From Serendipita indica DSM 11827 (Eukaryota; Basidiomycota; Agaricomycetes; Sebacinales; Serendipitaceae): a stretch of 64,000 nt of DNA. Of the stretch, positions 54,118-61,168 are shown piece after piece. Positions within the stretch are counted from its first letter, which is position 1, and each line of letters begins with the position of its first letter. The stretch is taken from NCBI GenBank assembly GCA_910890315.1, contig CAJVGD010000006.1:434001-498000 (forward strand). The letters are read 5' to 3'. Under the pieces are notes generated by a model that did not search any database, was not told the DNA's origin, and saw nothing but the letters and a program-made list of their open reading frames with translations. Position numbers and translations under genes: made by a program.

Positions 54118-57100
54118 ATGTCTACTACTCGCTCTTTTCTAGCTCTTCTCCCGCTCGTTGTCCATTTTGTTCGCGCTTGCGACGAAGCCATTCCTTTGTG
54201 GCAGGTCAAGAACATCCTTGCAAAGTTTAATTTCTTAACTGATGTGATCTCAGCAATGTGGAGGAATCACGTATTCAGGCCCTAGCCACCCTCACTGTGT
54301 CGATGGAGCCATATGCCAGGAGTGGAATCCCTATTATGTAAGCATATAGTCTTTTTTTTTGTTTCTGCGCCTAAATACATCAGTTCCAATGCATTCCTGA
54401 CCCCAACGCCTCGAGCTCTTCGTCTTCGAGTGCCTCGTCCTCAAGTTCTTCGTCCGTAACTCAAAGCTCATCCACAAGCCTTCCAACCGACACCCCGACG
54501 TCGACTAGTACAAGTACTTCAAGTACAAGCACCCAAACGCCTACATTTACTCCTCCCGTCGTCCCGTTGTCGCCAACGGGCCTGGCAGCCCTCGCAAAAT
54601 CGAAAGACAGGTACATTGGATCTGCATTCGACAATGGATACCTTTCCGACACTGCCTATACTAATATTGTTCTCTCCAATGTGAACCAAATCACATGCGA
54701 GAACTCGATGAAGGTGCGACAAATTTTCATATCCCTGAACCGAGTTCTGATCTGTGCAGTGGGAGAGCATTGAGGCAACGAGAGGGGTGTTCTCCAGCCC
54801 TGATGCTGATCGAATGGTTCAGCTGGCCGAAGCCAACGGAATGACGATTCGTGGTCATACTCTCGTCTGGCACTCCCAGCTCCCATCATGGGTATCTAGC
54901 GGCAATTGGACTACTTCCACTCTTACAGAAGTCATCACGTCGCACATTACCGGTGTCATGACAAAGTACAAAGGAAAGATCCACACGTGGGACGTTGTGA
55001 ACGAAGTCATCGGTGTAAGTGCGCCAAAAAGAGTCATATTTCATTCTTATATGCACCAGGATGATGCAAACATGCGTCCGTCTGTCTTCTACAACACACT
55101 CGGCGAAAGCTTTATCGATCTCGCATTCAATACGGCCAAAGCAGTCGATCCCAAGCCCATCTTGGCGATTAATGATTATAATATGGAGTATTCGCAGAAA
55201 GCCACAGCGATGTATAATCTCGTTAAGCGGCTCAAATCTCGCGGAGTTCCTGTTGAGCAGATTGGCGCTCAGGCGCACTTGGTTGTTGGTTCTCTCCCAA
55301 GCGGTATCAAGGATATCTACCAAAACTTTGCATCTCTTGGTGTTTCGGTCGCGTACGCCCGTCATAAAGCCATTGTCCGAGCTAACATATTGTAGGGTCA
55401 CCGAACTGGATATCCGTATGCCTACACCACCTACCGCTGCAACTCTCGCCCAACAGGCTGCTGATTATGGTTCGTAAGGAGTCATATCTATTCTATGCTG
55501 ACAGTATCTAGTCACGGTTGTCAAGGCCTGTCTCGACGTCCCTCAATGTCTTGGAGTTACTTGTGAGCCATTTATTTGCGGTTTCATCCACCTGTACTAA
55601 TCCTTCGCTAGTCTGGGGTCTCACGTATGTACGATGGGCGAGCGTGGTCGGTTTTTTGATTACCTCCCAGTGACAAATACTCTTGGGTTCCTGATGTATT
55701 CTCGGGTGAAGGAGCGGCTTGCTTGTACGACGAGAGCTTGCAGCCCAAGCCCGATTACACTGCCGTCCAGTCGCTTCTCTCTGCCACGCCAACGTCGACA
55801 ACGACGACAGCCAGCCCTACGGATACTCAAACGACCGTGACCAGCTCTCCGACATCGACATTTACTCCACCAGTCGTCCCGTTATCCCCTACAGGTCTGG
55901 CGGCTCTCGCCAAGTCGAAGGATAGGTATATGGGATCTGCGTTCGAGAACGGATATCTTTCCGACTCGGCCTATACCAGCATTGTCCTATCAAATGTGAA
56001 CCAAATCACATGCGAAAACTCAATGAAGGTACGGTGATTTTACGACCATACCATTTTATCTGACACAGTACAGTGGGAGAGTATCGAAGCAACGCGAGGA
56101 GTATTCTCTAGCCCCGATGCTGATCGAATGGTTCAACTGGCCGAAGCTAACGGGATGACAATTCGTGGCCATACTCTCGTCTGGCACTCTCAGCTCCCCT
56201 CATGGGTAGCCAACGGAAACTGGACCACATCGACACTGACCGAGGTTATCACGTCGCATATCACCGGAGTTATGACCAAGTACAAGGGCAAAATCCACAC
56301 ATGGGATGTTGTGAACGAAGTCATTGGAGTGAGTACATTGATTTCTAGTCAATTTCGAGCTAATAATTATAGGACGACGCAAACATGCGTCCATCCGTCT
56401 TCTACAATACCCTCGGCGAAAGCTTCATTGACCTGGCATTCAATACGGCCAAAGCAGTTGATCCCAAGCCTATCCTGGCCATCAATGACTACAATATGGA
56501 GTATTCACAGAAGGCTACCGCCATGTATAACCTCGTCAAGCGCCTCAAATCGCGTGGTGTTCCAGTCGAGCAGATTGGCGCTCAAGCCCATCTGGTTGTC
56601 GGCTCTCTTCCAACCGGCATTAAGGATATTTACCAGAACTTCGCATCTCTCGGCGTCTCTGTTGCGTACGTGCGTGATAAGGCCATTATTCTACTCTAAC
56701 GCATCATAGTGTCACCGAGTTGGATATCCGCATGCCTACTCCTCCCACCGCTGCAACTCTCGCTCAACAGGCTGTTGATTATGGTTTGTAAGGAAGACGT
56801 ACTTATTCTATGCTGACACTGTTTAGTCACGGTTGTCAAGGCCTGTCTTGATGTTCCTCAATGCCTTGGTGTAACTTGTAAGCTGTCTATTGCCAAATTA
56901 AGACTCTAACTGACCTTGATCTAGTCTGGGGTCTCACGTATGTCCAAAGGATTAATGTTACTGACCGACTGACCGTCAATCTAGCGACAAATACTCTTGG
57001 GTTCCTGGCGTATTCTCAGGCGAAGGTGCGGCTTGCTTGTACGACGAGAGCTTGCAGCCCAAGCCCGATTACACCGCCGTCCAGTCGCTCCTCTCTGCCA

Positions 57101-60100: not shown

Positions 60101-61168
60101 AGTGCGCATAATTGGTGTTGACCAGTTGGGCAGTGGGAAACCATTGAAGCAACGCGAGGTGTCTTCTCTAGCCCGGATGCCGACAACATTGTTGCGATTG
60201 CTCAACGCAACGGCTTGACCATGCGCGGGCACACTCTTGTGTGGCACTCGCAGCTTCCTGCTTGGGTAGCCAATGGCAACTGGACCACGACGACTCTGAC
60301 AGATGTGATCAAATCTCACATCACTGGTGTGATGACCAAGTACAAGGGCAAAATCCACACCTGGGACGTTGTAAACGAGGTTGTTGGAGTATGTACACCA
60401 TAACCAGTCTTTCCGATTCTAAATTTCGCCAGGATGACGCCAAAATGCGCCCATCTGTGTTCTACAATACGCTTGGTGAAAGCTTCATCGACCTCGCTTT
60501 CAAGACGGCCAAGTCGGTCGATCCCAAGCCCATTTTGGCCATCAACGACTACAACCTGGAATACTCGGACAAGGCCAATGCAATGTACGATCTCGTCAAG
60601 CGCCTCAAGGCTCGTCATGTTCCCGTCGAGCAGATTGGTGCCCAAGCGCATTTGGTTGTCGGCTCTCTCCCGACGGGTATCAAAGAGACTTACAAAAAGT
60701 TTGCGTCTCTTAAAGTCTCAGTCGCGTATGTGAATTGTATAGAGCCACTATTTCGAGCTAACGTGTCATAGGATCACCGAGTTGGATATCCGTATGCCGA
60801 CCCCTCCGACGGCTGCAACTCTTGCCCAACAAGCCAAGGATTATGGTCTGTTGAACGACATGATTTGACAAATACTAACCTATTTCCAGTCACCATGGTC
60901 AAGGCCTGCCTCGAAATCCCTGAATGCCTCGGCATCACCTGTGAGTATTTCATTAGCCAGTGCACAGCAAAGATGCTGACTCTTTGCCAGTCTGGGGTCT
61001 TAGGTATGCGCAACGGAGGAGAGTCAGCACGTTGCTAATTCATTCTACAGCGACAAATACTCGTGGGTGCCGGGTGTCTTCTCTGGCGAGGGAGCAGCGT
61101 GCTTGTATGACGAAGACCTGCAGCCCAAGCCAGACTATACTGCTGTGCGAGCCGCATTGTCGGCGTAG
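54118..61168 (+). CDS. secreted xylanase with one CBM1 and five tandem GH10 catalytic modules
   Basis: Signal peptide [20 protein letters not shown], then a complete CBM1 made over three exons ([29 protein letters not shown]; four Cys), a Ser/Thr linker, and five GH10 domains. No stop or new start separates them: each domain ends [11 protein letters not shown], runs into a Ser/Thr linker and [19 protein letters not shown] of the next. Each module keeps WDVVNE (acid/base Glu codons at 55003, 56317, 57631, 58949, 60377) and [10 protein letters not shown] (nucleophile Glu at 55403, 56717, 58031, 59349, 60779). Six introns per module sit at the same places and phases; the spliced 1,314-bp unit is 1,044 bp, 348 codons. 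I count about 32 introns and 1,860 residues; stop at 61166-61168. Linkers are about 33 residues, and about 70 before module 5. Role: endo-1,4-beta-xylanase outside the cell. A five-module GH10 chain is not a usual architecture. Confidence 0.88.
54760..56073 (+). repeat. GH10 module 1 repeat unit
   Basis: Runs from the exon starting [11 protein letters not shown] to the same exon of module 2. Same protein motifs as the others but introns and third codon positions differ from modules 2 and 3, so it is an older copy. Its tail (from about 55720) is almost the same as the tails of modules 2 and 3. Confidence 0.85.
55720..58600 (+). repeat. recent tandem duplication inside the xylanase gene
   Basis: The stretch from about 55720 to 57285 matches about 57034 to 58600 at a fixed offset of 1,314 bp, with only a few base differences, including identical intron sequences. 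This points to a very recent unequal crossover or gene conversion. Confidence 0.9.
56074..57387 (+). repeat. GH10 module 2 repeat unit (1,314 bp)
   Basis: Exactly 1,314 bp to the matching point of module 3. Exons and all six introns are nearly identical to module 3; a visible difference is Thr versus Ser in VVGSLP(T/S)GIKD. Confidence 0.9.
57388..58705 (+). repeat. GH10 module 3 repeat unit
   Basis: Near-identical to module 2 until about 58600, where it begins to follow the sequence of module 4 (AYTNIVL in place of AYTSIVL, different first intron). Confidence 0.9.
58706..60133 (+). repeat. GH10 module 4 repeat unit with long linker
   Basis: Catalytic motifs whole ([16 protein letters not shown]). 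Introns are related to but differ from modules 2-3. The linker after [16 protein letters not shown] is about 70 residues with repeats of the [10 protein letters not shown] kind, twice the length of the other linkers. Confidence 0.85.
60134..61168 (+). repeat. GH10 module 5, terminal and most diverged
   Basis: Begins [29 protein letters not shown] replaces the [19 protein letters not shown] of the others, and [15 protein letters not shown] differs too. Both catalytic Glu are present. Ends [11 protein letters not shown] and the only stop of the chain. Confidence 0.85.

Follow-up and report, generated by a model that had tools for sequence, protein, structure and literature searches.

In Serendipita indica DSM 11827, a single open reading frame was found to encode one CBM1 followed by five GH10 modules. 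The gene lies on the forward strand of a 64,000-nucleotide (nt) stretch of contig CAJVGD010000006.1 (positions 434,001 to 498,000; NCBI GenBank assembly GCA_910890315.1), which is referred to below as the window and in whose own numbering all positions are given. An earlier reading of the same DNA (hereafter the original prediction) had claimed such a frame, and the observation holds: Pfam recovered five PF00331 (GH10) stretches in one frame, with 1812 bits for the protein and the best stretch covering positions 2-309 of 311. We propose, with a probability of roughly 0.7, that this one gene would yield one CBM1-anchored, multivalent GH10 xylanase, the number of whose modules would change via unequal exchange.

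Splice patterns for 54118-61168 were derived from the sequence itself and GT..AG was demanded, so that the intron consensus is built in and is not a result, whereas the single open frame and the intron phases were not built in and are results. Splicing gave 33 exons and 32 introns of 42-50 nt, and a frame of 5,595 nt with its sole stop at the end, corresponding to a protein of 1,864 amino acids (aa) and 200.8 kDa. Each of the five modules carries six introns in the phases 0,0,2,1,1,2, and two further introns of phase 0 lie inside and after the CBM1. Retention of an intron leads to a stop or a frameshift for 31 of the 32, the exception being intron 4. About 32 introns in matching phases and one frame with a single terminal stop had been anticipated by the original prediction, whose estimate of about 1,860 aa also stands, but its mass of ~190 kDa differs from ours. 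A frame open by chance was ruled out, as the differences between modules are mainly synonymous (128 synonymous and 9 non-synonymous between modules 1 and 2; 149 and 74 between modules 4 and 5). Upstream of the modelled start at 54118, an alternative in-frame ATG is located 11 codons earlier at 54085, with a hydrophobic stretch downstream of both; the closest in-frame stop on the 5' side is at 54064, and with no stop between the two ATGs the start of the gene is not fixed.

At the N-terminus, the full PF00734 profile (positions 1-29 of 29) matches aa 27-57, in agreement with the claim of a single CBM. Four cysteines are typical of CBM1, and here Cys 31, 44 and 50 fall within the match and Cys 60 just past it. 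Seven other Pfam names (GH1, DUF4168, Nuf2 and others) matched without any individually passing stretch and were taken as noise summed over the repeats. The gene product is a CBM1-n(GH10) protein, that is, one CBM1 and two or more GH10 in a single predicted protein. Delimited as 315 aa starting from SPTGLA, all five modules contain the acid/base motif WDVVNE and the nucleophile motif TELD, all catalytic Glu being kept as had been claimed; following the GH10 literature, we take the Glu of WDVVNE to be the acid/base and that of TELD to be the nucleophile. The motifs [24 protein letters not shown] and FWGL[ST]DKYSW are likewise present in 5/5 modules. Each module is 47-50% identical to two solved GH10 chains, 3wuf and 6jdt, with which both Glu motifs align, and would be expected to adopt the barrel fold and to be active. 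A scan of module 1 against prokaryote genomes, which reaches close relatives only, returned two loci with 34% and 29% identity (34 pattern matches examined); no sign of a recent transfer from bacteria was apparent at this level of comparison.

Protein identity among modules 1-4 amounts to 96.5-99.7%, and module 5 is 82.5-82.9% identical to these. Non-synonymous (dN) and synonymous (dS) divergence was calculated by Nei-Gojobori counts with Jukes-Cantor correction, a simple method that nears saturation once dS approaches or exceeds 1, so that the dN/dS values are rough. Between module 1 and each of modules 2, 3 and 4, there are 126-128 synonymous and 8-13.5 non-synonymous changes (dS 1.05-1.09, dN/dS 0.011-0.017); for modules 2/3 versus module 4, dS is 0.76 (dN/dS 0.016-0.018). 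For pairs with module 5, dN/dS is 0.052-0.062 in three of the four, and in the fourth dS is saturated. Among modules 1, 2/3 and 4, 39-52% of the fourfold sites differ, and in comparisons with module 5 this rises to 56-67%, the value for full randomisation being 70%. Homologous introns of modules 1, 2, 4 and 5 have a mean identity of 0.59-0.69, compared to a control of 0.55 (standard deviation 0.045, maximum 0.67) for 360 non-homologous pairs aligned alike. The high dS together with a dN/dS of 0.011-0.018 indicates that the modules, the 2/3 pair excepted, separated long ago and that each was kept functional under strong purifying selection. The near-identity of modules 1-4 argues for dose or valency over specialisation, as selection that holds four modules near-identical in protein speaks for a larger amount of one activity rather than for a division of labour. 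Module 5 may be an exception to this. In a relative-rate test against modules 1, 2 and 4 with 3wuf and 6jdt as outgroups, module 5 carried more unique changes in 6/6 comparisons, but chi-square was 0.2-5.8 and exceeded 3.84 in only one of the six, and the comparisons are non-independent.

The 2/3 pair and the junctions have a more recent history. Modules 2 and 3 differ at 3/945 coding positions and at 0/270 intron positions, that is, 3 in a module body of 1,215 nt or about 2.5 per kilobase (kb). Likewise, the exons that span junctions 1-2, 2-3 and 3-4 differ mutually at 6-11 of 358 nt, although the flanking module bodies have diverged. Seven of the nine unit differences fall within the first 105 nt, a stretch made up of the ends of modules 1 and 2. 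The near-identical junction exons fit an exchange centred on the linkers together with one recent duplication of the whole unit of 1,314 nt.

Our model is that of a secreted endo-beta-1,4-xylanase, in which the sole N-terminal CBM1 would anchor the protein to cellulose and five GH10 catalytic barrels would be strung behind it on flexible Ser/Thr linkers that are probably O-glycosylated. Each module would cut the neighbouring xylan by the retaining two-glutamate mechanism, and the modules would act together as a multivalent enzyme. Within the gene, frame-keeping unequal exchange would have multiplied the modules, the linker-centred junction exons would have been exchanged recently, and modules 2 and 3 would represent the newest duplicate.

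Several points weigh against this model, some by themselves and others through the alternatives that they feed. First, secretion rests on an N-terminal stretch that was judged by eye. Second, divergence is uneven, as in modules 1, 2 and 4 introns three and four (in module 1, 55353-55395 and 55470-55511) keep an identity of 0.70-0.91 and the other four of 0.49-0.71, the lowest of which (down to 0.49) are no better than the non-homologous control; exchange has thus probably touched the module bodies too, and each dS value averages over a mosaic. Third, the divergence of modules 2 and 3 is close to the allelic rate given for the two nuclei of heterokaryotic Piriformospora indica, 2.6 single-nucleotide polymorphisms per kb (genome report, PMC3192844), so that one of the two could be a mis-assembled allele. 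The gene would then truly have four modules, modules 2 and 3 being alleles of a single module that the assembler placed one after the other, and both the three differences in the module body and the six identical introns are what this would produce. A recent duplication, however, yields the identical picture, the mis-join would have to be in register, and copy number already varies, with two and three modules, in published relatives, for which reasons we regard the four-module alternative as unlikely, if worth keeping in mind. An assembly error, which the original prediction had named as its refuter, is plausible for modules 2 and 3, but the divergence among modules 1, 4 and 5 is too large for them to have arisen as assembly copies. 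Four modules, namely 1, one of 2/3, 4 and 5, therefore appear secure.

A fourth point concerns the integrity of the chain. At the start of module 5, a basic KRKKR occurs at aa 1559-1563 (59971-59985), where modules 1-4 have KSKDR, and this is a possible protease site. The whole 200-kDa chain might be cut in its linkers by secreted proteases into one CBM1-GH10 and four free GH10, the fusion serving to raise dosage. Near-identical proteins in modules 1-4 would be expected if each worked alone, and the Ser/Thr/Pro-rich linkers of 33 and 71 aa look unstructured. Nevertheless, the position of KRKKR corresponds to a part that lies within the Pfam match of module 1, and the Ser/Thr-rich linkers found in secreted fungal enzymes are, as a rule, glycosylated and protease-resistant. 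Furthermore, dibasic sites of the Kex2 type are absent from all four inter-module linkers, and Kex2 processing at the linkers is accordingly not supported; those found elsewhere are VKRLK, once per module, the KRKKR itself and one KK in module 5. Overall, we find such a polyprotein rather improbable, and a chain that stays intact remains our preferred reading.

The last point concerns transcription. Neither TATAAA nor AATAAA occurs on the forward strand in 53.7-61.5 kb, be it between the modules or equally at the gene's own two ends, and as both are missing at these ends as well, their absence between modules is non-discriminating and is no argument against separate genes, whose internal promoters or poly(A) sites would give single-module transcripts from units of a gene-like length of about 1,314 nt. 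CCAAT is found at 54386, 54676, 59857, 60270, 60575 and 61260, the one at 59857 falling in the last linker. Separate genes are nonetheless highly improbable, since the four junction exons (358, 358, 358 and 472 nt) are each open and in frame from the last part of one GH10 across the linker into the first part of the following module, Met is absent from the three 33-aa linkers and occurs just once (aa 1508) in the 71-aa linker, and no signal-like stretch was seen by eye ahead of modules 2-5. As these exons contain neither introns nor stops, the modelled splicing cannot part the modules at the linkers, which only internal transcript starts or ends could do.

Table 1. Positions of the xylanase gene, its parts and the upstream paralogue within the window.
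Feature	Position	Strand	Basis or remark
Whole gene	54118..61168	+	33 exons, coding sequence 5,595 nt, 1,864 aa; alternative in-frame start 54085
N-terminal hydrophobic stretch, signal-peptide-like, aa 1-20	54118..54177	+	translation judged by eye
CBM1, aa 27-57	54196..54337	+	Pfam CBM_1 positions 1-29 of 29; broken by intron 54205-54253
Ser/Thr-rich linker from CBM1 to module 1	54384..54569	+	first residues include the last CBM1-type Cys, aa 60
GH10 module 1, aa 120-434	54570..55785	+	Pfam, module cut from SPTGLA; 6 introns
Junction exon 1-2	55671..56028	+	end of module 1, 33-aa linker 55786-55884, start of module 2; no intron, no stop
GH10 module 2, aa 468-782	55885..57099	+	splicing and module comparison
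Junction exon 2-3	56985..57342	+	33-aa linker 57100-57198
GH10 module 3, aa 816-1130	57199..58413	+	splicing and module comparison; six introns identical to those of module 2
Junction exon 3-4	58299..58656	+	33-aa linker 58414-58512
GH10 module 4, aa 1164-1478	58513..59730	+	splicing and module comparison
Junction exon 4-5	59616..60087	+	71-aa linker 59731-59943
GH10 module 5, aa 1550-1864	59944..61165	+	82.5-82.9% identical to modules 1-4
Stop codon	61166-61168	+	end of module 5
Single-module CBM1-like and GH10 paralogue	51861..53771	+	tblastn, ends set by eye; appears broken, not part of the enzyme

Upstream of the multi-module gene lies a single-module gene (Table 1), and the two look like tandem paralogues. 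In the latter, introns were found by eye at corresponding positions, namely after ENxMK, after the acid/base motif and before TELD. It contains an in-frame stop in one exon and a frame shift before the acid/base motif, and so either appears broken or carries sequencing errors. One of its introns, which sits where the large gene has its first GH10 intron, has a GC donor as judged by eye. The adjoining frames match PrpF (50775-51602) on the upstream side and Sir2 (61726-63333) on the downstream side. The window contains 57 long open frames; Pfam was run on 20 and assigned 12 to families at E 0.001, including SET, C2H2 zinc finger, short-chain dehydrogenase, COG6, THOC2, GTP cyclohydrolase I, FBPase, PrpF and Sir2. 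Judged from such matches, the gene setting is that of an ordinary eukaryote. The GC content of the window is 50.76%, and the genome report gives 50.68% for P. indica (PMC3192844); this closeness and the rare architecture shared with two Sebacinales proteins (see below) agree with a source in that order.

In fungi, proteins that hold more than one GH10 are rare, a survey of 218 fungal genomes having counted 531 GH10 domains in 527 proteins (PMC5428031). The rule put forward in the original prediction, that fungal GH10 enzymes normally have one catalytic domain, holds, but the present architecture has precedents: Table 1 of that survey lists CBM1-2(GH10) for two proteins, with Sebve1|110734 of Sebacina vermifera as the one named example, and CBM1-3(GH10) for one protein, Pirin1|75864 of P. 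indica. Both named examples belong to the Sebacinales. By tabulated architecture, these predicted proteins resemble ours in that a single CBM1 precedes several GH10 within the same chain, and differ in having two or three GH10 instead of five. For the P. indica genome, 454 reads were used (PMC3192844), and near-identical modules could be undercounted in such an assembly; Pirin1|75864 may therefore be a shorter model of this same gene. What is new is the number of modules; the design is already tabulated in root-dwelling Sebacinales, of which this gene is an extreme version. In the part of the open literature that was searched, a scope that leaves aside supplementary files and most subscription papers, we found neither a fungal protein with more than three GH10 nor a functional description of the CBM1-n(GH10) architecture, and the accessible part of PMC11238990 holds nothing on tandem GH10.

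Other systems share parts of this organisation. For instance, ordinary fungal CBM1-GH10 xylanases such as Xyn10A of Aspergillus fumigatus Z5 (PMC5862715) also consist of CBM1, linker and GH10, but have one catalytic module compared with five here. The multi-GH11 xylanases of the gut fungus Orpinomyces likewise repeat catalytic xylanase modules in one chain, although these are GH11, number up to three in Table 1 of the survey and are combined with CBM10 rather than CBM1 (PMC5428031). In the same table, Allomyces macrogynus has 8(GH25)-GH18, many repeats of one glycoside hydrolase (GH) family, albeit of other families, so that five repeats are no record among fungi generally. Insect group II chitinases (Cht10) also carry several catalytic modules of the same family per chain, with four in An. 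gambiae and D. melanogaster; in contrast to our gene, these are chitinases of a different GH family, and AgCht10 has four chitin-binding domains (PMC3097210).

A chain of four or five near-identical, individually constrained GH10 on one cellulose anchor would provide a test of surface valency versus free enzyme. Furthermore, diverged coding DNA behind nearly the same protein would be a natural example of a repeat gene that is expected to recombine less, and the case suggests that modules may be missed in the short-read assemblies and the gene models of such fungi. GH10 is among the domains expanded in P. indica, and expression of GH10 genes, not specifically of this one, is induced during root colonisation (PMC3192844). 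Although it is a tentative and at present rather doubtful idea, the number of modules might be an evolvable, possibly strain- or nucleus-variable xylanase valency, with linker-centred exchange adding or removing modules in frame and strong selection keeping the module proteins alike despite drifted DNA. The far-drifted DNA of the modules would in turn slow their further loss by recombination. If this is true, Sebacinales root symbionts would have a tunable xylanase with "one anchor and many blades".

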